59,001 nucleotides of DNA from Pseudomonadota bacterium (GTDB taxonomy: Bacteria > Pseudomonadota > Alphaproteobacteria > Caulobacterales > Caulobacteraceae): contig JAHWJX010000006.1 of NCBI GenBank assembly GCA_019348195.1, positions 1 to 59,001 on the forward strand, given 5' to 3'. The first letter of the stretch is position 1, and every line of letters begins with the position of its first letter. The position numbers were made by a program, and so were the translations under genes. The notes under the pieces were generated by a model. The model was not told where the DNA came from. It did no database searches and saw only the letters and a list, made by a program, of their open reading frames with translations. Below, piece after piece: positions 8,542 to 42,407 of this stretch.

Positions 8542-8811
8542 TCAGCCGAACTCCGCGGGCTCGACACGCGCCGCCTCGCCGTTCGGCCCGACCACGATCT
8601 TCTCCACGCGCAGGCGCGCCGCTTCCAGTTTGCCCTCGCAATGCGCCTTGAGGCGGGCGCCGCGTTCATAGCGTTCGATGGACTGCTCTAGCGGCGCCTG
8701 GCCGCTTTCCAGCTCCGCCACGATCCGTTCCAGCTCGGCCAGCGCCTGCTCGAAGCTAAGTCCGGAGATGTCGTCGGAGCCGCCGCGCACAGCAGGAGGA
8801 GAGTCCGTCAT
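8542..8811 (-). CDS. xseB: Exodeoxyribonuclease VII small subunit
   Basis: XseB wraps around the large subunit XseA to form the single-strand-specific exonuclease VII. The 89-aa protein has the family core: LSFEQALAELERIVAELESGQAPLEQSIERYERGARLKAHCEGKL (quoted as a contiguous helical region at about residues 19-65), followed by RLRVEKI. Length is typical. It is the first gene of the run with csaA, ispA and dxs; xseB-ispA-dxs linkage is common in Proteobacteria. xseA is not in the window. Confidence 0.93.
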   Translation of the reverse strand: MTDSPPAVRGGSDDISGLSFEQALAELERIVAELESGQAPLEQSIERYERGARLKAHCEGKLEAARLRVEKIVVGPNGEAARVEPAEFG

Positions 8812-8920
8812 GAGCGGACCCTAACGAGCCCCCCGGCCCCGCACAACGTCCGCTCACCAAGGAACGCACGAGCCGTGCCCGGCCAAAAACGTCGCCGCCG
8901 ACGTCCGCGGGATTCCCGGC

Positions 8921-9544
8921 TCACCCCTGCTCGAAGCGCTGGGCGCACCAATAACGGTAACCGCCCGTGGAGACCCGGCGCCAGCCCCGGGCCTTGAGCT
9001 CCCGCCCGATCATTGCGTTGAAGAATCCGTGCGCAAGCAGCAGCACGTCCTGCCCGCCTTCCGCAGCCTCGATCAGCCGTGACGCCGCCTCTCGAGCCCG
9101 CGCCGTCGCCCGAGTTCGCGTTTCCTGCCCGTCATGGTGCCCGAAGAACCACCAGGCGCTTCTCGCAATCACGCCCCAGGTCCGCGGCGAGAGCTTGAGC
9201 CAGCGCGGCAGGGAGGGCGGCGGCAGGGGCGCCTCCACGAAGACGGGATCGGAACGGAAGTGGTCCGGTCCCACCACCGCCCGCGCGGTCTCCACCGAGC
9301 GTCGCCGCACCGAACAGAACACGACCCCGGCCGCCCGCGCCGCCTGCACCAAGCCGGAGGGGGGCGTCTGCCCATGCAGAAGCCCGCCTTCCTCATAGCT
9401 GGCCCACCACCTGCGGTAGCCCGCAGCGTCCAGCCGAACCCGCCGGGACAGCGCCGGTTCTCCGTGACGCGCGAGCACGATCGCGCCCGGGGCTGCGGCC
9501 AGGTCGCGGGTCGGCAAGGGTTTCAGGGCGGCGGTCGCCGTCAT
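8921..9544 (-). CDS. Histidine phosphatase family protein
   Basis: The phosphohistidine signature VLARHGEP is at about residues 23-30 (catalytic His27), and a second conserved segment reads LLLAHGFFNAMIGRELKARGW near the C-terminus, with the second catalytic His. The conserved arginine/serine segment FCSVRRRSVETARAVVG lies between. The 207-aa size fits a short branch of the phosphoglycerate mutase-like superfamily. Substrate cannot be told from the sequence. A GTG three bases upstream (9547) is an alternative start. It is a lone gene between xseB and a histone deacetylase-like gene on the same strand. Confidence 0.85.
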   Translation of the reverse strand: MTATAALKPLPTRDLAAAPGAIVLARHGEPALSRRVRLDAAGYRRWWASYEEGGLLHGQTPPSGLVQAARAAGVVFCSVRRRSVETARAVVGPDHFRSDPVFVEAPLPPPSLPRWLKLSPRTWGVIARSAWWFFGHHDGQETRTRATARAREAASRLIEAAEGGQDVLLLAHGFFNAMIGRELKARGWRRVSTGGYRYWCAQRFEQG

Positions 9545-28776: not shown

Positions 28777-29023
28777 GGCCCGCCCCAGTCGCATGCGCCT
28801 GCGACCAGACTGGCGGCTCGGTCCATGGGCTCCTCGCAACGCCGGCCGGTGTGGAGTGGGAACATGATGGGCGCAGCCGCCACGCAGGCTCAAACCCCTC
28901 CGGAAGTTGGCTGAAGTCGAAGCACCCCGGCGCCGCCCTACCGGTGAACAGGTTCGCTTACCCCGAGACGCATGAAACCAAGCTCCCTGTCCGGGGTTTG
29001 CTCCCCCGAACGGGAGATCGGCG

Positions 29024-29518
29024 ATGAACCTTTTCAAAGGTCTGTTGGCGGGCGCGCTTGCGGGAGCGGCCGCCAGCTGGGTCATGGAGCGTTTCCAGGA
29101 GCAATGGCTCCTGCGGGAAGGCAACGCCGGCGAGACTCCGGGCAATATGGGCGCCCTGGGGACGGAGCCCGCCACCATAAAGGCCGCCGATGCGGTGGCC
29201 CAGGCTGTCACCGGCGCCCGGGTTCCGGCCCAGCAGCGCGAACTCGCCGGTGAGGCGATGCACTACGCCACGGGCGCCGGGGTGGGCGGCGTGTACGGCG
29301 TGCTGGCCGAAATCGCGCCGGGGCCGACCTTCGGCTTGGGCGCCGTCTACGGCGCGGCCGTGGCCCTGGGCGTGGACGAGCTGCTCGTCCCGGCGCTTGG
29401 GCTGTCCAAGCCGGCCCGGGATGTCCCTCCCTCGCAGCACGCCTACAATCTCGCCTCTCACCTGGTGTACGGCCTCACTCTGGAAGGCGCGCGGCGGGTC
29501 TTCCGCGTGCTGCTTTAG
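29024..29518 (+). CDS. DUF1440 family membrane protein
   Basis: The 164-aa protein has several glycine/alanine-rich hydrophobic segments: FKGLLAGALAGAAASWVM at the start, YATGAGVGGVYGVLAEIA and GLGAVYGAAVALGVDELLVPALGL, and a conserved HLVYGLTLEGARRV end. This matches DUF1440 (YagU-like) inner-membrane proteins of unknown function. A GGGAG site precedes the ATG. It stands alone between a response regulator and a LuxR-type regulator. Confidence 0.8.
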   Translation: MNLFKGLLAGALAGAAASWVMERFQEQWLLREGNAGETPGNMGALGTEPATIKAADAVAQAVTGARVPAQQRELAGEAMHYATGAGVGGVYGVLAEIAPGPTFGLGAVYGAAVALGVDELLVPALGLSKPARDVPPSQHAYNLASHLVYGLTLEGARRVFRVLL

Positions 29519-29785
29519 TTCCGTAGAGGAAGCCTTGGCCCAGCAAACTGCGGCCGACGCGCAATCGAGGATCAGCCCCCCTGGACGGTCGCCAGGCGCC
29601 GCGCCCCGTGACGCTGCGACCGCTTCGTCGAGGTATCGCTCCCGACGTGCCGCGCCTCAACCAGGCCTCCGTAGATGGACCCGCGACATGCTGGCGGACC
29701 GGACGCCCGCGCCCCCTCCGGCCTGAGGTTCAGCACCGACCGGCGGGGTCTGAACTCAGACGGGCCTCGACGTCTGCAACAAGGT

Positions 29786-30877
29786 CTAGGCCAGACCTTC
29801 AACCAATCGGACGAGCTTGCTCACTCGGGTTACCCCGGTCTTGCCGTAGATCGACCGGATCTGCGCACGTATGGTCTCGAGGGACACGCCGCGCGCCGCG
29901 GCGATGTCCTCCGGAGCCTGTCCAGCGGCCAGGGCCGCGGCCACGTCCGTTTCAGCGGCGGTGAGGCCGTAGGCCTTTCGCGCCGCCGCCGCGCCGCTGG
30001 AGGTGCGGCCGCCGATGGCGCGCGCCGTCACCAGCACGGCAGGCGAGAACGCCAGGGCGTAGGCGTCTGTTGGCAGCCGGCTCACATCTATGGTCATGGC
30101 GTCTGCGCCGTCGACGTCTGTGATGATCAGCGTCTGGCAGACCCGGCTCTGATCAACGACGGCGGCGCGGATGGCGCTCTGAAGCTGCGCCTCGTAGCCC
30201 GAAGCGGCGGCCGAGAGGCGGCCCTCGCGGAGGCACAAACGATCAGCCCTTCGCAGGAGCGCTTCGCCCTCCAGCGTCGTCCGGAGTACGTGTCCATCGT
30301 TCCTGCACAGGAAGGCGCCCAGTTTGAGCGCGTCCAGGCCGGTCGCCATGGCTTCCAGCCCGCGCTGCTCCAGGGCGATCTGGATCCGCATGGCGTCACG
30401 GATCAAGATCCCGCATCGCCTCAGCCGCTCGTGGTCGTGGGGACAACCATCGCGGCCGTGATGGGGGCTGCCGATCGCGATCCCGGCCAGGAAGCCGGGC
30501 TGGCGGTAAAGCACGAGCGCGGAAGCAAAGCCCGTGTCTCCTCGGTCGAAAACCTCGTAGAGATCATGACGCTCGCGTTGACCTGGCGAAAGGATCTCGT
30601 CGTCCGTGTAGGGATCCAGCAGGGGTCGCGTCAGGGCGGCGCGGACCCGAGGATTGTCGGCGGGATCACCGGCCCGCTGGCCCAACTCCACGACAAAATC
30701 CTGACTTACGTTGGAAAGGGTGTTCAGGGTGAGTCGGCCCCGCTCGTCGCCTGCGATGAGGTTGCCCACCCGCGCACCGCAGAAAGCCGTCACCCGCTCG
30801 GTCGCCTCCAACCAGGCCGCCGAGTCGAAGGCGGCCATCTGGACCGCCTTGACCACGTCTTCGTAGCTGGCTTGCAT
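29786..30877 (-). CDS. LuxR-type regulator with PAS-like N-terminal region, downstream of the curli operon
   Basis: The 363-aa protein ends with a LuxR/FixJ helix-turn-helix (about residues 300-363): YGLTAAETDVAAALAAGQAPEDIAAARGVS, then LETIRAQIRSIYGKTGVTRVSKLVRL. The central part (about 170-290) has the LEALMLGAFLCR-like ... LLRRADRLCLREGRLSAA pattern seen in PAS-like sensor/LuxR proteins. It has the same general plan as the interrupted regulator at 39989. It lies 254 bp downstream of csgH on the same strand, so a role in amyloid regulation is possible but not shown. The ATG at 30877 is used. Confidence 0.82.
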   Translation of the reverse strand: MQASYEDVVKAVQMAAFDSAAWLEATERVTAFCGARVGNLIAGDERGRLTLNTLSNVSQDFVVELGQRAGDPADNPRVRAALTRPLLDPYTDDEILSPGQRERHDLYEVFDRGDTGFASALVLYRQPGFLAGIAIGSPHHGRDGCPHDHERLRRCGILIRDAMRIQIALEQRGLEAMATGLDALKLGAFLCRNDGHVLRTTLEGEALLRRADRLCLREGRLSAAASGYEAQLQSAIRAAVVDQSRVCQTLIITDVDGADAMTIDVSRLPTDAYALAFSPAVLVTARAIGGRTSSGAAAARKAYGLTAAETDVAAALAAGQAPEDIAAARGVSLETIRAQIRSIYGKTGVTRVSKLVRLVEGLA

Positions 30878-31110
30878 GGCGCTTCCAGTCCCCGGCTTGC
30901 ATTAAGCCAAGCTTGACCATTGAGCAAGAAGCGGCGCGGCCGCCGTTGTCGGCTGAACGCGCCGGACGCCTAGAGCCGCTTGGCCAGGATTGGTCGCCAG
31001 ATTGCGTGTGAGCGAAGGCCGAACACGGTCGCCAATAGCGAACCGCCTCGCCAGAGGGGTGACAGGCCCGAGGCTCGGCCGTTCCATAAGGCCGGCCGTG
31101 AGCCGCGACT

Positions 31111-31133
31111 AGCCGCGACTTGGGCTCGCGGCT
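31111..31133 (-). terminator. Hairpin at the end of the curli operon
   Basis: Perfect 8-bp arms AGCCGCGA (31111-31118) and TCGCGGCT (31126-31133) with a 7-base loop overlap the csgH stop codon. A second copy of AGCCGCGA lies at 31101-31108 and could form an alternative pairing. No U tract follows, so factor-independent termination is uncertain. Confidence 0.45.
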
Positions 31134-31515
31134 ATCGACGCTTTTCGTCGCGAGCGACGAGTTCGTCGCCGCGGTAGATGCTGAGGACCACGCGGTAGCC
31201 GTCCCCGGCGCCAAGGGGGGAGAGAGCCGTGCGCGACAGCTGGACGGCGTCTCCGGCCTTTGCCTGGATCGAACCCGCCTGCCGACTCGTGCTCCGGCCC
31301 GCGGGGCCGTTCCGTTCGGCTGTGAGCTCATAACGGCCGTCAAACGGGGCCTCCGTTCGGACAAAGGCGGTGAACGCCTGACCCGAGCCGGCCGGCTCGG
31401 CCCGGACCCAGGCCTGGACACCTGACCCCCCCGGCTCATCGGGGGCGGCCAAGGCGGCGGCGCCGAGGAAAACGCCGGTCACTCCGAACAGGCGGGGCAT
31501 GCGCCGCGCCCTCAT
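31132..31515 (-). CDS. csgH: CsgH-like curli chaperone
   Basis: The 127-aa protein has a signal peptide (about residues 1-23, ending ALAA) followed by a beta-sandwich-like region: GVQAWVRAEPAGSGQAFTAF, VRTEAPFDGRYELTAERNG, STSRQAGSIQAKAGDAVQLS and GYRVVLSIYRGDELVARDE. This is the alternating pattern of CsgH, the alphaproteobacterial counterpart of CsgC, which holds curlin subunits unfolded in the periplasm. Its ATG overlaps the preceding stop (ATGA), placing it in the curli operon as the last gene. The family assignment is from pattern memory. Confidence 0.78.
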   Translation of the reverse strand: MRARRMPRLFGVTGVFLGAAALAAPDEPGGSGVQAWVRAEPAGSGQAFTAFVRTEAPFDGRYELTAERNGPAGRSTSRQAGSIQAKAGDAVQLSRTALSPLGAGDGYRVVLSIYRGDELVARDEKRR

Positions 31516-32216
31516 TGGGGCGGCGGATTGACGACCACACCAGCGCCCGAACCCCCACCCCCGGTGATCAGCTCAAGCAGGGCGGCAGGTAGGTCGGTCG
31601 GAGCGGCGCTGCCGGCGGGGTCTTCCTCTTTCTCCTCCTTGGTGGCGGCCAAGACGGAAGCGGCGACCGCCTGGCTGGCCAGATCGTCATCCTCAATCGC
31701 GCCGGAAGCCGCCCGTCTGGCTACGGCGCGCCCGTCCGCGATGTCGCTGGTCCTCGCTCGCCGCTCGGCCAGCAGACGCTGCTCCGGACTGAGGGGGGCC
31801 TCCGCGCGCTCGAACTCGGCGGAGCGTGTTTCCAGCACGCGCGCGCAGTCCGGAGCCGGTCGGCTTGGCGGCCCACCCCGCGGATCGCAGCGGTCGGCGC
31901 CGCCGATCGGGACGGCGGCGGTCGGCCTGCGACCCTGCGCGGGTGTGGACAAGGAGGCAGGGGCTTCCGCCGTGCGACCGCCCCGGTTGAGCTGGGGACC
32001 GGCCCGGAGCCCGCGTTCGGCGCTCAACTGACCTGAAGCGGTGACCCGCGTTCCGCCCGGGCTGATCTGGTCCACCGCTGTGTCCTGTCCGCGTGGCGCG
32101 GCGATCTGGGCGACGCCGCGGGCGGCCCCTGCCGGATCCATAGCCGCGGGCTGTGTCTGGGCCGCGGCTGCGCCGCTAGAGGCCATCAGCGCGGCGGCGA
32201 GGGCGAAGGATCTCAT
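31512..32216 (-). CDS. Uncharacterised secreted protein in the curli operon
   Basis: I do not recognise this family. The 234-aa product from the ATG at 32216 has a clear signal peptide (MRSFALAAALMASSGAAAAQ), then a low-complexity region rich in Gly, Arg, Pro and Ala with one curlin-like stretch, GGTRVTASGQLSAERG. Two cysteines follow (CDPRGGPPSRPAPDC). A predicted helix (LSPEQRLLAERRARTSD), a charged KEEKEED patch and a GGGGSGAG tail ending PPPQ complete it. The start overlaps the stop of the curlin gene before it and the stop overlaps csgH, so it is tightly coupled. It could be a minor fibre component, a periplasmic adaptor or a CsgE substitute, but none of these is supported by homology that I can see. 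Confidence 0.7.
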   Translation of the reverse strand: MRSFALAAALMASSGAAAAQTQPAAMDPAGAARGVAQIAAPRGQDTAVDQISPGGTRVTASGQLSAERGLRAGPQLNRGGRTAEAPASLSTPAQGRRPTAAVPIGGADRCDPRGGPPSRPAPDCARVLETRSAEFERAEAPLSPEQRLLAERRARTSDIADGRAVARRAASGAIEDDDLASQAVAASVLAATKEEKEEDPAGSAAPTDLPAALLELITGGGGSGAGVVVNPPPQ

Positions 32217-32932
32217 CAACGACCGTTGTGCTGGATTATGTTGATCATGCTGGCGCCGTACTGGGTGATCTGCAAGTCGCGCAGATAGGATCCCTGTTGC
32301 ACCCAGGAGGCTTTGTTGCCGTCGCCCAACTGAGTCAAACCCATGCGGTTGCCCGTCCCTGCCTGGGACAGGCGCGCGTCATTGTTTCCGCCATCCTGCA
32401 GCAACGACATTTCGTTGAAACCGCCATCCTGGGTGAGCTGGGCCGCGTTGCTCTGCAGCGCGGCGTATTGCTGAACCGCCATCCGATTTGCGTCCCCGGT
32501 CTGGCTCATGATCAGGGTGTTGTGCGCCGGGCCGTCCTGCCCGGCCTGGAGCGCGTTGCCGTTCCCGTCCTGACGCGCTTGGGCGTAGGCCGACCCCGCG
32601 CCGGACTGGTTGACCTCGGCCCGGTTGGCCTCGCCGATCTGTTCCACCGAGGCGAGCTGATCGCCGATGGCGGATTGGCGAACGATCGCCCGGTTCGCGG
32701 TCCCGGTCTGGACGACCAGGCTCCCCCGGCCATAGCGGTCGCCGACTTCGACCGGCGTGGCCGTCCGAACGTTGCCCACGCCTTTGCTGTTGCCGTTGTT
32801 GCCGTTGCATGGGTTGCCCGTGCCGCCGCTCAAGCACACGTCCGTTCCCTTCGCAGCGCCTTGCGCCCAAGCCGGAGCCGCCGCGAGCGCCAGCAGCAGG
32901 GCGGCCAAGCCCATCAAACGTTCAGACTGCAT
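32216..32932 (-). CDS. Curlin-repeat protein (CsgA/CsgB-like, possible nucleator)
   Basis: The 238-aa protein has a signal peptide (residues 1-23, ending AWAQ), an Asn/Gly-rich segment with two Cys (DVCLSGGTGNPCNGNNGN) and about eight canonical curlin units of the form S/A-x5-Q-x-G-x-x-N-x-A-x3-Q, for example RQSAIGDQLASVEQIGEANR and TQDGGFNEMSLLQDGGNN. These units stack as amyloid beta-arches. Its repeats are closer to classic CsgA/CsgB than those of the three large neighbours, and the divergent last unit (QITQYGASMINIIQHNGR) recalls the CsgB surface-anchoring end. That makes it a candidate nucleator (inference). An acceptable GGAG precedes the ATG at 32932. Confidence 0.85.
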   Translation of the reverse strand: MQSERLMGLAALLLALAAAPAWAQGAAKGTDVCLSGGTGNPCNGNNGNSKGVGNVRTATPVEVGDRYGRGSLVVQTGTANRAIVRQSAIGDQLASVEQIGEANRAEVNQSGAGSAYAQARQDGNGNALQAGQDGPAHNTLIMSQTGDANRMAVQQYAALQSNAAQLTQDGGFNEMSLLQDGGNNDARLSQAGTGNRMGLTQLGDGNKASWVQQGSYLRDLQITQYGASMINIIQHNGR

Positions 32933-33431
32933 TGATCTTGCTCCGAGAGAGATCTGTTCCTAGGGCGGCGAGCCCCTGACACGCCGCCCTCGCCTGCTGG
33001 CGGGAAAAGCGGCCGACGCCCGAAGGCGCCGGCCGAGTTGCTCCGACGCCGCCGGTCACGTACCCAGCTTGTCCGCGGCGGTATGGGCGAAAGCGGACGT
33101 CGCGCGTCGGAGCCTGTTGGGACGAGGCGGGCCGGCTCGGCCACTCGGCACCGCTGCGGCGCTCCTCAACCTCGTCCATGCTTGTCGGCGTCCTCCCCTT
33201 CACTTCAGTATGGCGCTTGCCCTGGCCCGCCCCCGTCGCCGGCCGGTGTCGCCAGCCGACTCCCCCCGCCGCGAAGCGGTCGGCGTCGGCCCCCGAACGA
33301 AAGGCGAGATTGAGGACCATCGTCATCCCTGCTTGGTGAAGTTCACCGCGAAAGCGCACGCCCTGCATGCGATTGCGTGGGGAACCTGAAGGAATGGCCC
33401 GGCGCCATCGAGGGACGCCGGGCCGAACCGG
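32933..33431 (-). other. 499-bp gap inside the curli locus
   Basis: No convincing gene is present; a 148-codon minus-strand frame here has no signal peptide, repeat or family feature. The left end should hold the promoter of the 238-aa curlin gene, and the right end holds a terminator-like hairpin (33396-33424) after the 480-aa curlin gene. The gap divides the locus into at least two transcription units. Confidence 0.5.
33396..33424 (-). terminator. Terminator-like hairpin after the 480-aa curlin gene
   Basis: Perfect 9-bp arms GGCCCGGCG (33396-33404) and CGCCGGGCC (33416-33424) with an 11-base loop start 8 bp past the stop codon. The stem is very similar to the hairpin at 34924-34950 after the other large curlin gene. 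Confidence 0.6.
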
Positions 33432-34874
33432 TTATTGCCCCACAGTCAGGACGTGCCCCGTTCCCGCCTGAGCCAGGTCGGCCGTATTTCCGGCGCTGGC
33501 TTGGGACAGAGTGATCAGGTTGTCGGCGCCCGACTGGAGGAGATCGGCCGTGTTGTTGGCCCCGCTCTGGTCGATGGCGACGCTCAGCAGAGAGCCTTCC
33601 AGCTCCTGCGTCACTGCGGCCGTGTTGCCCGCGGCCCCTTGCGAGAGGCCCACCACCCCGTCGTCACCCAGTTGGGCGACTGTGGCGGATGAGCCGGTCG
33701 ACGCCGCCAGCTGCATGATCCCGACCTGGTTGCCGGTTCCGACCTGGTCGATGAAGACCGAGGACGCGGAAGCCTGGTCCAGATCCGAGACGTTCGAGCC
33801 GCCGGACTGAAGGACGTCGGCCGTAGCCGCCGCCGTCTGGTTGATGACGGACTCGTTGAAGCTGGCGCCCGCTGCGACGGTCTGGTCGACGGTCGCCGAA
33901 GCGCCCGCCGCGGACTGGGTCACGAAGGAGTCGTTGCCGTCTCCTCCGGCGCCGCCGCCCGCCTGGGTCACATTGGCCATGGCCCCGGCGGTCTGGTTGA
34001 CCACGGAATACTGATAGCCGCTTCCCGACTGGGTGGTGGTCGCCGAAGCTCCGTCCGCGGTCTGCGTGATGAAGGAATCGGAGCCCTCGCCGTCGCCGGA
34101 CTGGTTGACGACTGCGGAAGCGCCTGCCGTTTGCGCGATGTCGGCGTAGTGCCACCCGGCCGTGGCTCCCGACTGGCTGACGGTCGCGGTGGCGTCATCA
34201 CCCGACTGGCTGATGTCGGCAACGTGGCCGCCATCGCCGGATTGTGTGACGCTGGCGACAGCCGCCCCGGTCTGGTTGATGAAGGCCTCATGGTAGGTGT
34301 CGTCACCCGACTGGTTCACGGTGGCCGAGCCGTTATCGGCCGTCTGGTCGATGGTGGCCTCGTGGCCGGCCGCGCCCGATTGCGTCACGGTGGCGTCAGC
34401 GTCGCCGTCCTGTTCGATGTCGGCGACATTGTACCAGTCCTCGCCGGACTGATCGACGCTGGCCGAGGCCCCGTCCGCCCGTTGCACGATGCTGGTTTCG
34501 TGACCGCCCCCACCGGATTGAACGACATTCGCCGTAGCCGCGGCGTGCTGGTCGATGGTGGCGTTGTGGAAGGCGCTGTCGCCGGCTTGGCTGAGCGTGG
34601 CCGAAGCGCCGTCCTTGGTCTGGTGCACGCCGGCCTTGTGACCGCCGGTTCCGGTCTGGGTGATGTCGGAAGTAGCTGCGCCTTTCTGTCGAACTCGGGC
34701 CAGATGGTCATCGCCCGTTTGGTTGATGCTCGAGACGCCGGCGGCGGTCTGTCGGACTTGAGCGGTGTTGGCCGTCCCGGCCTGGTTGATGCTGGACGTG
34801 CCCGTGTCGGCGAAGGCGGCGGTCGCTGCGAAGAGCGCCACCGTCGATACGCCGTTGATGATGAGCCGTTTCAT
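33432..34874 (-). CDS. Large curlin-repeat amyloid protein, 480 aa
   Basis: The protein has a signal peptide (MKRLIINGVSTVALFAATAAFA) followed by about 40 beta-strand segments by my count, nearly all ending in Gln, from SSINQ to VLTVGQ. In the centre, short arcs of about 10 residues (TAGASAVVNQ) alternate with longer arcs of 12-16 residues. The longer arcs carry His or aromatic residues: GGHKAGVHQ, SAFHNATIDQ, EDWYNVADIEQ, DTYHEAFINQ, GWHYADIAQ, GYQYSVVNQ. The C-terminal quarter reverts to plain curlin units with Asn. A typical CsgA has five repeats, so this is several times larger. A good AAGGAAG site precedes the ATG. It should be secreted through CsgG as an amyloid fibre subunit. Confidence 0.85.
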   Translation of the reverse strand: MKRLIINGVSTVALFAATAAFADTGTSSINQAGTANTAQVRQTAAGVSSINQTGDDHLARVRQKGAATSDITQTGTGGHKAGVHQTKDGASATLSQAGDSAFHNATIDQHAAATANVVQSGGGGHETSIVQRADGASASVDQSGEDWYNVADIEQDGDADATVTQSGAAGHEATIDQTADNGSATVNQSGDDTYHEAFINQTGAAVASVTQSGDGGHVADISQSGDDATATVSQSGATAGWHYADIAQTAGASAVVNQSGDGEGSDSFITQTADGASATTTQSGSGYQYSVVNQTAGAMANVTQAGGGAGGDGNDSFVTQSAAGASATVDQTVAAGASFNESVINQTAAATADVLQSGGSNVSDLDQASASSVFIDQVGTGNQVGIMQLAASTGSSATVAQLGDDGVVGLSQGAAGNTAAVTQELEGSLLSVAIDQSGANNTADLLQSGADNLITLSQASAGNTADLAQAGTGHVLTVGQ

Positions 34875-34923
34875 GGCTGTGGCTTCCTTGTGGAATGAGA
34901 TTGAGGGTCGAACCCCGGGGAAA

Positions 34924-34950
34924 GGACCGGCGCCCCAGGGACGCCGGTCC
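34924..34950 (-). terminator. Terminator-like hairpin after the 574-aa curlin gene
   Basis: Perfect 9-bp arms GGACCGGCG (34924-34932) and CGCCGGTCC (34942-34950) with a 9-base loop, in the 88-bp gap between two curlin genes. It is close in sequence to the hairpin at 33396-33424, as if the gene and its 3' hairpin were duplicated together. Confidence 0.6.
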
Positions 34951-34962
34951 GACTCCTAGGCC

Positions 34963-36687
34963 TCAGAGGCCGCCCTGGGTGACGGTGGCGACGTTGCCCG
35001 TGCCGTCCTGGGTGATGGAGGAGATGTTGCCGGCCGCCGACTGGGTGACGGTGGCGACGTTGTTGTCTCCACCCAGCTGGCTGATGGTCGACAGGTTGTC
35101 CTCGCTCGACTGAGTGACGCTGGCCAGGTTGAAGGCCCCCGTCGCCTCTTGCGTCACGCTGGAGGCGTTGCGGTCGCCGCTTTGGGCCACGGTGACCCCG
35201 CCGTTCGCCCCATCTTGAACGATGGTGGAGCTGGCCAGGGTGCTGCCCATAGCTTGGCTCACGCTCGCCGTGTTCGCGGCCCCACCCTGGTTGACGCTGG
35301 ACATGCCGGTATCGCCCAGTTGAGCGATGGTGATCGAAGACCCGGCCGAGTCCGCACCCTGGATCGCGCTGGAGCTGTTGCCTTCGCCGATCTGGTCGAT
35401 GGCGACCGAGGAGGCGGAGGCTTGATCCACGAACGAGAACTGGTCCCCGCCCGACTGAGCCACGTCGGCGGTGGCGGCCGCCGACTGAATGATCTCCGAT
35501 TCGCTGTAGCCGCCGCCGTCCGCGGCCATGGTCTGGGCGACAAGGGCGGTAGCCCCGGCCGCGGTCTGCGTCACGTAAGAGTCGCTGCCCACCGCGCCGT
35601 TACCGCCATCTTGGGTCACGGTGGCGGTGCTGTCGCCGGACTGGTTCACCTCCGAATACTGATAGCCGCTGCCCGATTGGGTGACGGCGGCCAGGGCGCC
35701 GGCCGCACTTTGCGTGATCAACGAGTCGCTGCCGGCGCCGTCGCCGCTCTGGGTCACCACTGCGTCAGCGTCGGCGGATTGCACGATGTCCGAGTAGTGG
35801 TAGCTCGCCGCGCCCGATTGGTTGACGGTCGAAACCGCGCCGGCCCCGGACTGATTGATGTAGGACTCGTGGTCGCCCGCACCCGCTTGGTTGACGGTGG
35901 CGTCGGCGTCGGCGCTCTGAGCGATGTCCGAGATCTTGTAATAGTCGGACTGGTTGACGCTGGCCACCGCCCCGTCGGCAGCCGCGTCCTGGACGATGTA
36001 GGACTCGTGCCATTCACCGGACTGGACGACCGTGGCGGCCGCATTGCCGGCGGCTTGAGTCACATAGGACTCGTTCAGCCGCAAGCCGTCGGCGTTCGTC
36101 TGGGTGACGTTGGCCGTCGCATTCGCGCCGCTTTGAGCGACCTCCGACAGGTTCTCGTCGCCGGTCTGGGTGACCATCGCCGAGGCGCCGTCGCCGGACT
36201 GGTTGATGGCGGAGCTGCTCGCGCCGCTCTGCAGCACGGAAGCGGTGGCGGCGGCCGTCTGAGTGACGCTGGAGCTCGCGCCGCCGGCCTGGTCCACGGA
36301 CGCTTCAGGCAGATCGCCGCCCAGCGCCGTTTGGGTGACGCTCGAGTCGTTGTCGTCGCCGCTCTGGTCGACGTTGGCGACGGCGCCGTCACCGTCCTGG
36401 GTGATGGACGAGAGCGAGTTTCCGTCCTGGGTGCTGTTGGCGAGGTTGCCGAGGCCGTCCTGGTCGATCCTGGAGTCGGCGCCCGTTCCGGTCTGCAGGA
36501 TTCCGGCGTTATTGCCCGATCCCGCTTGGCCCAGCAGCACATTGGCTCCGGAAGCCGCCGTCTGGTCGACCGCGGCGATTTGTTTCTCGCCGCTCTGGCT
36601 GACGGTGGCGACGTTGGTCTGGGCGAAAGCCATGGTGGCGGCGAGCAAGGCCGCGCTCGACACGCCCGTGAAGATGGTCTTTTTCAT
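34963..36687 (-). CDS. Large curlin-repeat amyloid protein, 574 aa
   Basis: The ATG at 36687 gives a signal peptide (MKKTIFTGVSSAALLAATMAFA) and then about 48 Gln-terminated strand segments by my count. Examples are VATVSQSGEKQIAAVDQ, SSITQDGDGAVANVDQSG and, at the end, NVATVTQSAAGNISSITQ. As in the 480-aa neighbour, the central part alternates short arcs with longer His/aromatic arcs: GEWHESYIVQ, DYYKISDIAQ, GDHESYINQ, SYHYSDIVQ, GYQYSEVNQ, GGGYSESEIIQ. The segment SGSGYQYS is shared exactly with the neighbour, so the two are paralogues. It is almost free of Cys and Pro and very rich in Ser, Ala, Gln, Asp and Gly. Export through CsgG/CsgF is expected. Confidence 0.85.
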   Translation of the reverse strand: MKKTIFTGVSSAALLAATMAFAQTNVATVSQSGEKQIAAVDQTAASGANVLLGQAGSGNNAGILQTGTGADSRIDQDGLGNLANSTQDGNSLSSITQDGDGAVANVDQSGDDNDSSVTQTALGGDLPEASVDQAGGASSSVTQTAAATASVLQSGASSSAINQSGDGASAMVTQTGDENLSEVAQSGANATANVTQTNADGLRLNESYVTQAAGNAAATVVQSGEWHESYIVQDAAADGAVASVNQSDYYKISDIAQSADADATVNQAGAGDHESYINQSGAGAVSTVNQSGAASYHYSDIVQSADADAVVTQSGDGAGSDSLITQSAAGALAAVTQSGSGYQYSEVNQSGDSTATVTQDGGNGAVGSDSYVTQTAAGATALVAQTMAADGGGYSESEIIQSAAATADVAQSGGDQFSFVDQASASSVAIDQIGEGNSSSAIQGADSAGSSITIAQLGDTGMSSVNQGGAANTASVSQAMGSTLASSTIVQDGANGGVTVAQSGDRNASSVTQEATGAFNLASVTQSSEDNLSTISQLGGDNNVATVTQSAAGNISSITQDGTGNVATVTQGGL

Positions 36688-36990
36688 AGCAGGTCTCGTC
36701 TCTCGATGATGCGCCGCGGCGCTGGTTGAAGATTTCGGCAAACCTCTCCCGTCTGCGGACGAAGCAACTTCGTTCGCAGTCGGCGGAGCTCCGCCGCAAG
36801 CTGATCAAGTGGACTCTTTCCGCCGGACGCCCCGTCCGGCGGTTACTTTCCGGCCGAAGCCGGCACATCCGCCCTCCCCTCAGGCGAGGACGAAACCGTT
36901 AAGGCGGACCTGGTCGCAGCCCTACGCCCTGCCGCCCTGAAACTTCGAGGGTTCAGGCCCTGAAGCCCGAAACCTGTAGACTCCTCCGGG
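36688..36990. repeat. Cluster of four hairpins between curlin genes
   Basis: This 303-bp gap contains, in order: arms 36754-36764 and 36768-36778 (11 bp with one wobble, 3-base loop); CGGCGGAGCTCCGCCG, a perfect 16-nt palindrome at 36781-36796; CCGCCGGACG/CGTCCGGCGG with a 3-base loop at 36820-36842; and CCGGC/GCCGG with a 4-base loop from about 36850 to 36863. No gene is visible. The cluster could terminate or stabilise the mRNA of the upstream 317-aa curlin gene or act as a leader for the 574-aa gene. Confidence 0.65.
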
Positions 36991-37944
36991 TCAGAGCCCC
37001 CCGCCCTGGTTCACGACCGCGGAATGGTTCGCCCCGTCTTGCGTGACCGTCGCACTGTTGTTGCCCGAACCCTGCGTAACCCTGGCGGTATTGCTCATCC
37101 CAAGCTGGGAAACGATCGTCTCATTGCCAAGTCCAGCCATCTGGCTCACATTCGAAGTGTTCGAGCTTCCTTCCTGGCTGACTTCTACCCGACCAACCGA
37201 GCTGCTCTGCAGTATCTCAGAAATGTTTTCCTCACCCGACTGGGTTAGCTCAGTTCCACTCTCACCGCCTGTTTGGATGCTTCTTGCGATGTTCGCATCA
37301 CCAATTTGGGCGATAAAAATGCTCGAAGCAAAAGAATCTTGTGCTTGCTCGCTTGTGGCGCGGTTGCCGAACCCGACTTGCTCGACTTCCACGACGGATT
37401 CCGACATCTGAGTCGTAGATACGACGTTGCCTGAGCCCTGCTGAGAGACGAGCGCGGAACTCGTCGCCTGATCCTGAAGCACAGAGGCCTGGTTCTCGTC
37501 CCCCTCTTGGATGACGGCCGCCTCGGCGCCATCGGCCCTTTGAACAAGAGTGGCCAGATTGGCGTCCCCGAGTTGGGAGAGGGTGGACAGCACGCCCCTG
37601 AGGCGATCCAGATGTTCCAACACCGCCCCGTTCCCGGCGCCTTCCTGCACGATGAGGGCGGCTGCACCGGACGCGGACGGTTCGCCGCCCTGGATCACGC
37701 TCGCGGCGTTGGCCTGCCCCGTCTGCAGCACGACGCTCGTCTGCAGGGTTCCCGTCTGGGCGACGCTTGCATTGTTTTCACCACCGCTCTGGACGACGAT
37801 GCTGACCCCGTCGGCGGTGGCGGGCCCGATCAGGGCGTAGCCGAGCTCGCTGCGCCGCACGGCGGATCCTTCGGTCTGCGCGTAGGCCGCTCCCGCGCTG
37901 AGGAGCGCCAGGGACGACACGGCGGACAGTAGAAGACGCTTCAT
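36991..37944 (-). CDS. Curlin-repeat amyloid protein, 317 aa
   Basis: The ATG at 37944 gives MKRLLLSAVSSLALLSAGAAYAQ as signal peptide. Repeats begin near residue 45 (VVQSGGENNASVAQTGTLQ) and run to the end (SGNNSATVTQDGANHSAVVN), about two dozen Gln-ending strands. Unlike the next two genes it lacks the His/aromatic long arcs and has more Glu and Val, with one non-repeat insertion around VLEHLDRLRGVLSTLSQLGD. It is the first subunit gene after csgG (164-bp gap), so it may be a minor subunit or nucleator. Base composition is slightly more AT-rich in its 3' half than in its neighbours. Confidence 0.83.
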   Translation of the reverse strand: MKRLLLSAVSSLALLSAGAAYAQTEGSAVRRSELGYALIGPATADGVSIVVQSGGENNASVAQTGTLQTSVVLQTGQANAASVIQGGEPSASGAAALIVQEGAGNGAVLEHLDRLRGVLSTLSQLGDANLATLVQRADGAEAAVIQEGDENQASVLQDQATSSALVSQQGSGNVVSTTQMSESVVEVEQVGFGNRATSEQAQDSFASSIFIAQIGDANIARSIQTGGESGTELTQSGEENISEILQSSSVGRVEVSQEGSSNTSNVSQMAGLGNETIVSQLGMSNTARVTQGSGNNSATVTQDGANHSAVVNQGGGL

Positions 37945-38108
37945 CGTTCCACACCCTGTCTGGGCCGGCGCTTCCGGGCGCCGGATGGCGGGCAAACGTT
38001 GGGCGGACGCGGACGAAGCTGTCGTCGTTCGCGCTGGCCGACGCTACCGCCGGTTGCTGGTCACGCTATTCTCGGGCCGCCGAGCGTCGGCCCCCGCAGG
38101 GGTTCAGG

Positions 38109-39110
38109 TCATGCCGGGCCCCTCGCCCGTTTCGAAGAAGACTCGGTTTCGGCCCGCGGGGTCGCCGCGGGCGGGCTCGCCTGGCTTCGTGACGGATCGC
38201 GCTCGCGAACGGCCCTCACACGCTGTCTACGATCATGGTTGGTCAGCGCTTCAGCCTGTTTGGCGCTGAGCACGCCATCCCGCTCCTGAGTATAGCGCCA
38301 CAGATGCGGCCAGCCGGCGACCCGGTCGGCGAAGTTCCAGATCTTGAGCTCGACGCCTTCCATGACTAGGGCGTAGACGGCTTTCTCTATCGCCTGCTGC
38401 AACGCCAGTTGGTCGGGCTCATTGGTGGTGAAACCAGCCTCGGCCTCCAGTATCTCTTTGAAGGAGACATAACGGAAGGCGTTGGCGCCAACCGCGATGG
38501 ATACGATGCTCTTGGAGGTCTGAACCGAAGTCAGCACCTCGCCCGTCCGAACAGAGACGGCGCGAAGATAGACCGTGACGGTATCCTGACGATATTCGGT
38601 GCTGGCTCCGACACCCAGGAAGCGCGCGCCCATCCCGCCGGTCACGGTGTTGGTGTCATAGCCCACGATGCCGCCTTCCAGCAGCACGCCGGCGAACAGG
38701 AGCGCCGGCAAGGCCTCGGCATTGACTTCTCGTTCTCCAAGATAGCGCTCACGCATCTCCCGGATGATCTGGCGTTCCTGCAGCAGGTTCTTCAGCTGCT
38801 CTCGCTCGACGATGGTGAACCAGCGGCGCTGGCCCGCGTCCGATAGCGACTTGACCAGCATGGAGGCGGCCCCCTGGGTCACGGCGCGCGACAGCGTCTG
38901 GCCCGATTCCGTGGGTTTGAACTGCCCGGTCTGATCGGTGAAGCCGTAGACCGCGATAGCGACGGGCCGCGGCGGCGGCGGGAGCTCCTGGAGCGTCCGC
39001 CCCGCGGCGGTCTTCTCGGGGATCACCGGCAGCGTCTTGCGTTCGACCGGTGCGTGCCCGCACGCCGTGGTCATTAGGAGGCAGGCCAGAAGGGCGTAAC
39101 GAACAGCCAT
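38109..39110 (-). CDS. csgG: Curli secretion channel lipoprotein CsgG
   Basis: CsgG forms the nonameric outer-membrane pore that exports curlin subunits. The 333-aa protein has a lipoprotein signal with lipobox LMTTAC (Cys17). It then follows the family closely: VAIAVYGFTDQTGQFKPTES, VTQGAASMLVKSLSDAGQRR, WFTIVEREQLKNLLQERQII, LLFAGVLLEGGIVGYDTNTV, GGMGARFLGVGASTEYRQDT, VTVYLRAVSVRTGEVLTSVQ and VSFKEILEAEAGFTTNEPDQ. A basic, Pro/Ser-rich C-terminal extension (about 285-333) is longer than in E. coli. Its ATG overlaps the csgF stop by one base. Confidence 0.95.
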   Translation of the reverse strand: MAVRYALLACLLMTTACGHAPVERKTLPVIPEKTAAGRTLQELPPPPRPVAIAVYGFTDQTGQFKPTESGQTLSRAVTQGAASMLVKSLSDAGQRRWFTIVEREQLKNLLQERQIIREMRERYLGEREVNAEALPALLFAGVLLEGGIVGYDTNTVTGGMGARFLGVGASTEYRQDTVTVYLRAVSVRTGEVLTSVQTSKSIVSIAVGANAFRYVSFKEILEAEAGFTTNEPDQLALQQAIEKAVYALVMEGVELKIWNFADRVAGWPHLWRYTQERDGVLSAKQAEALTNHDRRQRVRAVRERDPSRSQASPPAATPRAETESSSKRARGPA

Positions 39111-39610
39111 CAGCCGATGTCCACGAAGGTGGGGATTTCGATCACGGTGACCGTGCCGTCCGGGTCGGTGATGGTCAGGACGACGCTGTCCAGTCCGCGG
39201 ACGAACTCGACGATCTGACCGCCGAAAACGAAACGCCCGCGCTCCTGCGGATTCTCACCGAAGATCGCGTCCGTCACCTGGGAAGCCAGGGCTGAGAGCA
39301 GCCGGGACTGCAGTTGGCGCGAGAATTGGTTGGCTTGGGACTGAGTATTGACCCGCTTAGGATCCTCATAGGTGTTCTGCGCGTTCGCCAGCCCGAGCAG
39401 ATGGGCGGAATTGAACGGATTGCCCCCGAAGCTCGGGTTGATTGGAGTGTGCACAAGGTCCTGTGCGGCAGCTCCAGGGGCTCCAGCGAGTAGTCCCCCC
39501 CCACCCATGGCTAGGATGAGGGCGGACCATCCGGCTATTCTCTTGGCCGGCTCGCTTCGCGCAGGTTTTCTCTTACGCGCATACCGCGCGTCTTCGTATC
39601 TTGACCGCAT
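39110..39610 (-). CDS. csgF: Curli assembly factor CsgF
   Basis: CsgF caps the CsgG pore and couples export to nucleation. The 166-aa product shows the mature N-terminus QDLVHTPINPSFGGNPFNSA, which in the family inserts into CsgG (TPxNPxFGG motif), then LLGLANAQNTYEDPK and a beta-rich C-terminal half (GRFVFGGQIVEFVRGLD). The signal region is unusually long: about 27 basic residues precede the hydrophobic segment WSALILAMGGGGLLAGAP, so a downstream start is possible. It is the first gene of the minus-strand curli operon. Confidence 0.92.
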   Translation of the reverse strand: MRSRYEDARYARKRKPARSEPAKRIAGWSALILAMGGGGLLAGAPGAAAQDLVHTPINPSFGGNPFNSAHLLGLANAQNTYEDPKRVNTQSQANQFSRQLQSRLLSALASQVTDAIFGENPQERGRFVFGGQIVEFVRGLDSVVLTITDPDGTVTVIEIPTFVDIG

Positions 39611-39988
39611 GATCTACGCCCCATCTCCGACCGGCGCTGTTTTTTTTGCGCTCACTCGGACCCGTTGACGTTCTGTTAAGGCTGAGCTCCCGCAGAAGCA
39701 TCCCCAATCTTGGTGATCAGGAAAAAATTTCCTTCGCCTTCAGTTCGAGCACGCGACGACAGTCCATCACCAAGGCGCCGCGTTCGGGGCTGTCACTCCG
39801 CACAATCCATTATTCGCGCCCAAGTTGCGCAACGTCGGGACGCAGTCGCACGTCGCCCTCTGATCTTCCCACCCTCTTCAGAAGACCCAACTATGCTGGC
39901 GAAGGCTCCGCTCTGCGTTGGGGGCCATCGTAGTCAATTTTGGGGATGCGACCTGCGCGGAGCCGTTCATAGTGTTCGCGAGGGACAC
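39611..39988. promoter_or_regulatory. Divergent promoter region of the curli operon and its upstream regulator
   Basis: This 378-bp gap separates csgF (minus) from the LuxR-like gene (plus) and is the most AT-rich intergenic sequence of the window. It has an 8-T run at about 39641-39648 and AGGAAAAAATTTCCT at 39719-39733, whose 6-bp arms AGGAAA/TTTCCT flank three A residues, a plausible operator. No gene is evident. Confidence 0.6.
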
Positions 39989-40594
39989 ATGCTGTTAGCT
40001 GCGGACAGCCTTCCAAAGGGGCCCGTGCCGGACGTCGAGGTTTTCCAGGATTGGCTGGAGACGGAGGGCGGCGCTCGGTTGGTCGTTGAGCGCTCCGGAC
40101 GCATCATCTGGAGCAACGCCCGCGCTCGCCGGTTGCTGAGCGAGGGGTCGTGCCTGACCATGACCGCGGGGCAGCTCGCCGCCCCCCACCGGGCGAGACA
40201 TGCGGAGCTCCGGACTTTCCTGGACAATCTCAACGGCGGGCCCGAGGTCGCGGTCCTGACCAGCGGCGAGGAGACCAAGCCGCCGGTCGTGATCATCGGC
40301 TGCGCCCTACGGGTCGACTCCGGTGACTATCTCGGGTTGCGGATCCGGCAGGTTTCGGACGCGCCGCGGCTGCTGGTGGCCGACCTCACACCCGCTTACC
40401 GGCTGACAGGCTCAGAACGGCAGGTCGTGCGGTGGCTGGTCGAAGGTGAGACCGCCGAGGCGATCAGCAAGGCCAACGGGTAGTCGATCGACACCGTGCG
40501 AACGCACATCCGGAACATATACAACAAGATCGGGGTGTCCTCGCGCGAGGCCCTATTCGCACGGGTCTTCCAATATCTGTTCTGGCTGGACTGA
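39989..40594 (+). pseudogene. PAS-like/LuxR regulator interrupted by an in-frame amber codon
   Basis: From the ATG at 39989 the protein has a PAS-like region (RLVVERSGRIIWSNARARRL then LSEGSCLTMTAGQLAA) and a LuxR HTH that begins YRLTGSERQVVRWLVEGETAEAISKANG. A TAG follows at 40481-40483. The same frame then continues with a perfect HTH second half, SIDTVRTHIRNIYNKIGVSS and REALFARVFQYLFWLD, ending at TGA 40592-40594. A single C-to-T change (CAG to TAG) would explain it. Without read-through the 164-aa product lacks the recognition helix. It is divergent from csgF and so is the prime candidate regulator of the curli operon. Confidence 0.8.
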
Positions 40595-40791
40595 GCCGCA
40601 CCGCTCCTCCTCGAGAACGCCCGACATGCCGCTCGGTTGATCCCGCGTTCGGAAGGAGCCTCCCCCCTTCATCGGCCATGCTCAGCCCATTGCCTCCCCG
40701 GAACGGCCGGGGTCGAGGCGAAACTTCGCAACGGCTTGCATCACTTGCACGCCCGAACGACCTTGAAGCCGCCCAGGGTGGGAGAATCCAA

Positions 40792-40977
40792 ATGATGACA
40801 AAGCGGGGCTGGTCTCCAGACGATGGGGAGAACAAGGCGCGGGACGCGCGGGAAGCCGAAACGGATCGTCTGAACGCGACAAGCAATGCGCAGCAACAGC
40901 GGTCGTCGAACGCGCCCCAGGCCCCCCCGGCCGGTGAGGCGCCTGCGCCAGGCTCGGAAGCGCCGACGAAGCCATGA
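40792..40977 (+). CDS. Small hypothetical protein coupled to the FAD oxidase gene
   Basis: This predicted 61-aa hydrophilic protein (MMTKRGWSPDDGENKARDAR start, Pro/Ala-rich end) is preceded by GGGAG and overlaps the next ATG through ATGA, which argues for real translation and coupling. I recognise no family. The ATG at 40795 is an equally good start. Confidence 0.5.
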   Translation: MMTKRGWSPDDGENKARDAREAETDRLNATSNAQQQRSSNAPQAPPAGEAPAPGSEAPTKP

Positions 40978-42407
40978 CCACGCGAGCCACGAGGTCCGGC
41001 GTCCTCGCGGAGGACGAGGGGCGGGCGGCGGCGGTGGCCGCGGTGCTTGCGCCCGTGCTCGGCGAGCGACTGACGGACAACGCCAGCGTCCGGTTCGCAC
41101 ACGGGCGGGGCGAGGGCTTCCATGCGCCGATGCCCCCCGATCTTGTCGCCTTTCCGCAGTCCACCGTCGAGGTTTCGGCGGTGGTCGCGGCCTGTGCACA
41201 GCATAAACTGCCGATCATCGCCTGGGGCGCCGGCACCTCGCTGGAAGGCGGCGTGACGGCGCCCCGGGGCGGTCTGTGCCTCGACCTTTCGAACATGAAC
41301 CGCATTGTGGCGGTGAACCCGGAGGACCTGGACTGCACGGTGGAAGCGGGCGTCACGCGCGAGGATCTCAACACGCACCTGCGTGACACGGGGCTGTTCT
41401 TCCCGATCGACCCCGGCGCGAACGCCACCCTGGGCGGCATGGCCGCCACACGGGCCTCGGGCACCACGGCGGTGCGCTATGGCACGATGCGCGACAATGT
41501 GCTGTCGCTCCGGGTGGTCCTGGCGGACGGGCGCGTGGTGCGAACCACCGGCCGCGCCCGGAAGTCGTCCGCCGGCTACGACCTGACCCGCCTCTTCGTG
41601 GGCTCGGAAGGCACGCTGGGCGTCATCACCGAAGTGACGCTGCGCCTGAGCGGCCTGCCGGAAACCGTGGTGGCCGCCGTTTGCCCCTTTGACGACCTGG
41701 CCGGAGCGGTCGGCTGCGTCATCGAGACCATGCAGACGGGCGTGCCGCTGGCGCGCATCGAACTGCTCGACGCCGTGCAGATCGGCGCGTGCAACGCCTA
41801 CAGCCGCACCGAACTGCCGGAGACGCCGACGCTGTTCCTGGAGTTCCACGGCGCCCCGCGCGCGGTCGAGGAGCAGGTCGGGACTTTCGCGGAGATCGCC
41901 GCCCGTCACGGCGCCGGCGCCGTGTCCCGGGCCACCCGTCCCGAGGATCGCTCCAGGCTTTGGCGCGCGCGCCACAACGCCTACCATGCGGCGCAGGCGC
42001 TCCGGCCAGGGACCTCGCTGGTGGTGAGCGATGTGTGTGTCCCGATCTCCCGGCTGGCCGATTGCGTGCTGGCCACGCACGCGGACATCGCCGAGGCCGG
42101 CATGGTGGCCCCGATCGTGGGCCATGTGGGCGACGGCAACTTCCACGTGATGTTCACGGTGGACGGAAGCGATCCCGTGGAGGTGTCGCGCGTCCGGCTT
42201 CTGAACGATCGCCTGGTGGATCGCGCGCTCGCCATGGACGGCACCTGCACGGGCGAACATGGGATAGGCGCGGGCAAGCGCGAAAAGCTGATCGCCGAAC
42301 TCGGCGGCGAGGCCGTCGGCCTGATGCTGGCCGTCAAGCGGGCTTTCGATCCACAGGGCCTGCTCAACCCGGACAAGATCTTTCTACCGTCCGAGGACCC
42401 GCTCTGA
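40974..42407 (+). CDS. FAD-linked oxidase, D-lactate dehydrogenase/glycolate oxidase GlcD-like
   Basis: The 477-aa protein belongs to the vanillyl-alcohol oxidase fold family. The FAD/PCMH domain shows PIIAWGAGTSLEGGVTAPRG, FPIDPGANATLGGMAATRAS and LFVGSEGTLGVITEVTLRL. The cap and C-terminal part have VGHVGDGNFHVMF with the metal-binding His residues, TGEHGIGAGKREKL, and the closing FDPQGLLNPDKIF. It would oxidise D-lactate or a related 2-hydroxyacid to the keto acid, passing electrons to cytochrome c or quinone. D-lactate is also released from MurNAc-6-P by MurQ, encoded downstream, which makes D-lactate an attractive substrate (inference). Confidence 0.92.
   Translation: MTTRATRSGVLAEDEGRAAAVAAVLAPVLGERLTDNASVRFAHGRGEGFHAPMPPDLVAFPQSTVEVSAVVAACAQHKLPIIAWGAGTSLEGGVTAPRGGLCLDLSNMNRIVAVNPEDLDCTVEAGVTREDLNTHLRDTGLFFPIDPGANATLGGMAATRASGTTAVRYGTMRDNVLSLRVVLADGRVVRTTGRARKSSAGYDLTRLFVGSEGTLGVITEVTLRLSGLPETVVAAVCPFDDLAGAVGCVIETMQTGVPLARIELLDAVQIGACNAYSRTELPETPTLFLEFHGAPRAVEEQVGTFAEIAARHGAGAVSRATRPEDRSRLWRARHNAYHAAQALRPGTSLVVSDVCVPISRLADCVLATHADIAEAGMVAPIVGHVGDGNFHVMFTVDGSDPVEVSRVRLLNDRLVDRALAMDGTCTGEHGIGAGKREKLIAELGGEAVGLMLAVKRAFDPQGLLNPDKIFLPSEDPL

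Follow-up and report, generated by a model that had tools for sequence, protein, structure and literature searches.

Gene content and conservation of a curli-type block

The window, meaning the whole stretch of 59,001 nucleotides analysed here, carries a curli-type block on its minus strand between 39610 and 31132. Open reading frames and domain matches resolve this block into csgF, csgG, four genes for curlin-repeat proteins of 317, 574, 480 and 238 aa, a gene for a 235-aa protein, and csgH. The original prediction had named csgF, csgG, csgH and the four curlins, and the positions of the reading frames together with the domain matches bear out each of these genes; the 235-aa gene at 31512-32219, which lies inside the block, had been left out. 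Judged by sequence, the locus is almost certainly an alphaproteobacterial-type curli operon (type VIII secretion), and its genes and the neighbouring regulators are as follows.

39110..39610, minus: csgF, 166 aa; probable outer-membrane assembly factor (PF10614, E 1.2e-30)
38109..39110, minus: csgG, 333-aa lipoprotein; probable secretion channel (PF03783, E 7.3e-62; solved CsgG structures, E 3.5e-58)
36991..37944, minus: long curlin 1, 317 aa; 24 strands, equal to 12 repeats (PF07012, six matches, E 1e-22)
34963..36687, minus: long curlin 2, 574 aa; 48 strands, equal to 24 repeats (PF07012, eleven matches, E 1.5e-23)
33432..34874, minus: long curlin 3, 480 aa; 40 strands, equal to 20 repeats (PF07012, nine matches, E 6.4e-21)
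32216..32932, minus: short curlin, 238 aa; 15 strands, about 7.5 repeats (PF07012, E 5e-11); candidate nucleator or cap
31512..32219, minus: gene for a 235-aa protein, predicted to be secreted; between the short curlin and csgH; family found in about 60 related loci
31132..31515, minus: csgH, 127 aa; probable periplasmic amyloid-inhibiting chaperone (NF041112, 66.8 bits against a cut-off of 35, E 1.3e-18; PF21112, 27.1 bits against a cut-off of 27)
39710..40483, plus: gene for a LuxR/GerE-type regulator, divergent from csgF; in-frame TAG inside the helix-turn-helix; weak GerE match (E 0.096)
29786..30877, minus: gene for a second LuxR-type regulator, 363 aa, downstream of csgH; GerE E 8.2e-05, below cut-off; candidate link to the operon

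Each of the four curlins contains 4 to 11 separate matches to Curlin_rpt (PF07012), with E-values from 5e-11 to 1.5e-23, and each has an N-terminus that reads by eye like a signal peptide. The source genome is a metagenome-type assembly of 2.55 Mb. Its CsgG is 99% identical to that of the Caulobacteraceae metagenome assembly YX1bin14, a sister genome referred to below as L021, and on this basis the source genome is assigned to the Caulobacteraceae. It encodes one curli-type CsgG; beyond this, HfaB was the sole member of the CsgG family found. A search of the whole genome gave no match to CsgE (PF10627), an absence that is not absolute in an assembly of 153 contigs and 93.9% completeness. According to a 2012 survey, CsgE is absent from Alphaproteobacteria in general, so its absence is not a defining feature of alphaproteobacterial curli (Dueholm et al. 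2012, PMC3521004). The order csgF, csgG, long curlins, short curlin, 235-aa gene, csgH is the same in dozens of related loci; culturable relatives with this arrangement include Brevundimonas variabilis DSM 4737, Asticcacaulis taihuensis and Sphingobium lactosutens.

Within the block, the 480-aa curlin is a partial paralogue of the 574-aa curlin (53% identity), and their genes share two collinear DNA blocks of 71-73% identity, both 1648 nt apart. Approximately 500 bases with no assigned gene (32933-33431) separate the 480-aa curlin from the short curlin; this segment can be aligned in L021 and far exceeds the usual spacing at that place in related loci. No Rfam element was found at 29000-41000, this segment included, and no sigma-70 promoter was found at the locus, again including the segment. 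Terminators at the locus were not in excess over shuffled sequence.

Relative to L021, purifying selection acts on every gene of the block from csgF through csgH, with dN/dS values of 0.04 for csgG, 0.11 for csgF, 0.17 for the short curlin, 0.23 for the 235-aa gene, 0.30 for csgH and 0.31-0.40 for the long curlins. The repeat number of the long curlins is unchanged between the two genomes over the stretches that can be compared, the sequence of L021 being interrupted by Ns close to the end of its homologue of the 480-aa curlin. These values bear on the idea that the operon is decaying or silent, to which the divergent regulator gene gives some grounds: it is interrupted by a TAG in its helix-turn-helix, and its copy in L021 is intact (8694-9395, minus strand, 233 aa, GerE E 4.3e-10). 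The structural genes, however, are all open as well as under purifying selection, the stop could reflect strain variation or a fault in the assembly, and a further LuxR-type gene is present downstream of csgH; we regard decay as highly improbable. Expression of the operon could nonetheless be altered through the interrupted gene. The second LuxR-type gene occupies the same place in L021, with a dN/dS of 0.21. A divergent LuxR gene was also considered as a general feature of such operons and rejected, as a homologue diverges from csgF in only 3 of the 71 loci with room for one.

Repeat number and predicted fold of the long curlins

Strands were counted with a simple motif (psi-x-psi-x-Q at a spacing of 10-16 residues), and the resulting chains were compared with those in shuffled sequences. 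The 317-, 574-, 480- and 238-aa proteins contain chains of 24, 48, 40 and 15 strands, respectively, whereas the shuffles average about 3 and never exceed 9. The 24, 48 and 40 strand segments first reported for the three large curlins are exact by this count. Their contrast with a five-repeat CsgA holds in its strand numbers but mixes units, because E. coli CsgA itself, like CsgB, gives 10 strands with the same motif (sequences from NC_000913); the proper contrast is 12, 24 and 20 repeats against 5.

The three large subunits had also been described as giant and unusually long, a description that the comparison with known curlins does not support. Published curlins range from 4 to 62 repeats; their distribution peaks at 5 and 7-8, with secondary maxima close to 15 and 22, and a single genome can hold as many as 30 csgA copies (PMC10192328). 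The 12-24 repeats found here, which belong to the same repeat family, fall within that range and near the maxima at 15 and 22, and we found no structural difference from the curlins of that survey. The 2012 survey had already reported up to 22 repeats, 529 aa and six csgA/B copies (PMC3521004). To place the locus among its relatives, we used 80 related loci gathered by CsgG similarity, and hence an uneven sample, of which 60 carry the 235-aa gene; these 60 are mostly from Sphingomonadales and Caulobacterales. They typically hold 2-5 curlins each. Their 142 curlins other than the short one, most of them long, have a median length of 544 aa and reach 1110 aa at most, and 53 of the 142 measure at least 574 aa. 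Long curlins in themselves are thus already known, the subunit lengths in the window are typical of relatives and close to their median, and the locus is average among the 60. That a single channel serves a family of subunits is supported insofar as the genome has one curli-type CsgG and several long subunits, but this arrangement is the norm among relatives rather than something special. The further suggestion of fibres that differ in strength or composition stands as a hypothesis.

AlphaFold2 modelling, proposed at the same time, was run for the 574-aa curlin with a three-sequence alignment and gave a pLDDT of 74 and a pTM of 0.72, with all 48 of the 48 motifs placed in strands. The prediction supports a stacked beta-solenoid. 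Foldseek returned no PDB match to the model at E up to 0.001; a second aligner, applied to 11 chains only, superposed it on beta-helix proteins (4.0-4.2 A over 261-341 residues). By sequence, the same curlin matches the solved curlin-repeat protein 8c50 (3.5e-15).

A short curlin of constant length and the conserved gene beside it

The 238-aa curlin differs from the other three, a point missed in the original prediction: the four do not form one graded family, and this one belongs to a separate conserved class. Each locus has one such curlin, the last before the 235-aa gene. Over 58 loci, two outliers (L033 and L037) having been set aside, this class holds 14.5 +/- 0.9 strands, compared with 41.0 +/- 14.2 for the other curlins. 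A profile HMM of the C-terminal ~50 residues of short curlins, built without the window and its sister L021, scores 53 bits at the C-terminus of the 238-aa protein and at most 29.4 bits against other curlins; the exception is one L037 curlin, which is apparently a real short curlin that was mis-assigned. The short curlin is therefore separable as a distinct class of fixed length with a C-terminal signature of its own. A short, constant repeat number and a distinct C-terminal repeat are among the marks by which a CsgB nucleator would be recognised, and the short curlin has both.

Profile scores give no clear choice between CsgB and CsgA for this class. The C-terminal HMM gives 18.1 bits for E. 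coli CsgB and 17.6 for CsgA, and so does not single CsgB out. Against the NCBIfam models, the 238-aa curlin scores 64.7 bits with CsgB and 48.9 bits with CsgA, neither of which reaches the cut-off, and of the three long curlins two likewise favour CsgB. According to the 2012 survey, CsgA and CsgB are distinguishable only in Gammaproteobacteria (PMC3521004). Constancy and position, not homology, are thus what suggest a CsgB-like role, and we put at about even odds the view that the short curlin is a minor subunit with a part in nucleating, anchoring or capping the fibres. Alternatively, all four curlins could be interchangeable fibre subunits, the short one being just the shortest and repeat number tuning stiffness or assembly rate. 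All four do match the same repeat family, and AlphaFold studies give one common solenoid at any length (PMC10192328). Interchangeable subunits would nevertheless have to be reconciled with the narrow strand number of the short class beside the 41 +/- 14 of the others, with its own C-terminal signature and fixed place in the operon, and with its lower dN/dS (0.17 compared with 0.31-0.40), and we regard interchangeability as unlikely.

The 235-aa gene is the next one after the short curlin, frequently overlapping it by 4 bases, and is itself followed by csgH; of ten downstream reading frames tested in this position, eight score above the NCBIfam CsgH cut-off. Its product has a start that by eye resembles a signal peptide, matches nothing in Pfam, NCBIfam or the PDB, and retains nine invariant residues across 37 aligned relatives (G107, D109, C111, C125, E130, R132, L143, E146 and L149). 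In its AlphaFold2 model (pLDDT 61, pTM 0.24), much of the sequence is of low confidence and five short segments are helical. Of 249 Caulobacterales genomes, CsgF is present in 29 and the 235-aa gene in 9, all 9 of them within the CsgF-positive 29. A class-wide sample returned the gene only from the window's own genome, which is uninformative given that CsgF itself was present in just 5 of the 289 genomes sampled. The consulted text of PMC3521004 contains no mention of this gene that we could find, and literature searches on curli in Sphingomonadales gave nothing on this gene layout. Comparison of about 60 loci has thus exposed a conserved accessory gene that is absent from Pfam and NCBIfam. 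It is possible, though somewhat doubtful, that its product acts with the short curlin on the same step, in the periplasm or at the surface.

Proposed assembly model, channel and relation to known systems

As a whole, the locus is best explained as a curli operon with long bulk subunits, a short minor subunit and a 235-aa helper, a reading to which we assign a probability of roughly 0.85. The parts of this reading that concern secretion, the formation of amyloid and the sharing of tasks are inferred from homology and comparative anatomy. The curlins would cross the inner membrane by means of their N-terminal signal peptides and be held from aggregating in the periplasm by CsgH, and would then exit, still unfolded, through a channel of nine CsgG subunits whose mouth carries CsgF. 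Outside the cell, they would polymerise into stacked beta-arch solenoids. The long curlins of 12, 24 and 20 repeats would form the bulk of the fibre, and the short curlin of fixed length would act like CsgB as a minor subunit, nucleating, anchoring or capping the fibres, with the 235-aa protein working on the short curlin's step in the periplasm or at the surface.

This organisation resembles the alphaproteobacterial csgH systems described in PMC3521004 in its single-operon layout, csgH beside the curlins, several csgA/B copies, repeat numbers reaching 22, and lack of CsgC, CsgD and CsgE. It differs in that the paper separates CsgA from CsgB only in Gammaproteobacteria, whereas here a short class of fixed length can be separated. 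With the csgBAC-csgDEFG curli of E. coli, the locus shares CsgG, CsgF, curlin repeats and a chaperone of the CsgC/CsgH kind; in contrast, no CsgE is found in the genome, the long curlins carry 12-24 repeats rather than 5 and have no obvious N22-type start, and the eyelet residues of CsgG are different. Tentatively, and at less than even odds, we suggest that Sphingomonadales and Caulobacterales make two-class curli, in which variable long curlins are combined with one fixed curlin of ~7 repeats that nucleates, anchors or caps and is aided by a dedicated, previously undescribed secreted 235-aa protein. If so, the fixed curlin and its helper would together fill the place of CsgB/CsgE, for which this lineage lacks a functional equivalent, and would be candidates for the start or anchoring of curli in Alphaproteobacteria with neither CsgE nor a recognised CsgB. 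The useful part of the ~60-locus comparison is that it sets one constant curlin apart from the variable ones.

A role in the holdfast or stalk, raised as an example in the original prediction, is weakened by the rest of the genome. Holdfasts are common in Caulobacteraceae, and this genome does encode HfaA, HfaB and HfaD. The complete hfaA-hfaB-hfaD set, however, lies on another contig (C65, locus L020), with all three proteins above their NCBIfam cut-offs and HfaB at 410 bits. The HfaABD anchor resembles curli in its CsgG-like HfaB and curlin-like HfaA (PMC6707917), and is here a separate group of genes with its own channel. The CsgG of the window scores 35.1 bits against the HfaB profile, for which the cut-off is 300, and is not an HfaB by this measure. 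Curli also have a scattered distribution in Caulobacterales, where 29 of 249 genomes carry CsgF, and are widespread in Sphingomonadales. Because of the separate hfaABD set, we consider service at the holdfast or stalk tip very unlikely.

The proposed curli channel retains much of its substrate pocket and departs from E. coli at its constriction. Of the pocket residues, L172 and W237 are kept, and I121 and L236 are conservatively replaced by V and I. Y51, N55 and F56, which form the eyelet in E. coli (pocket and eyelet sites from PMC6957492), correspond to T, T and L, and the constriction is accordingly not identical to that of E. coli CsgG. In a comparison of 89 CsgGs, S or T predominates at position 51, position 55 is T in 84 and position 56 is L in 87. 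By this comparison, the S/T, T, L eyelet is a lineage feature of these alphaproteobacterial CsgGs, and we draw no link to subunit length. The 127-aa protein is CsgH-like by profile, since it exceeds the cut-off of NF041112 although it has no cysteine and so lacks the distant cysteine pair by which the family has been defined (PMC4838910). Its pI is 8.4, against 4.05-6.1 for the curlins, and a charge contrast with curlins has been reported for the CsgC/CsgH family (PMC4838910).

In many long curlins, including those starting at 36687 and 34874 in the window and others among the relatives, a curlin strand such as NVATVSQSG or NNSTVTQSG directly follows the signal peptide. This strand appears to take the place of an N22-like segment and is a candidate recognition signal for CsgG.
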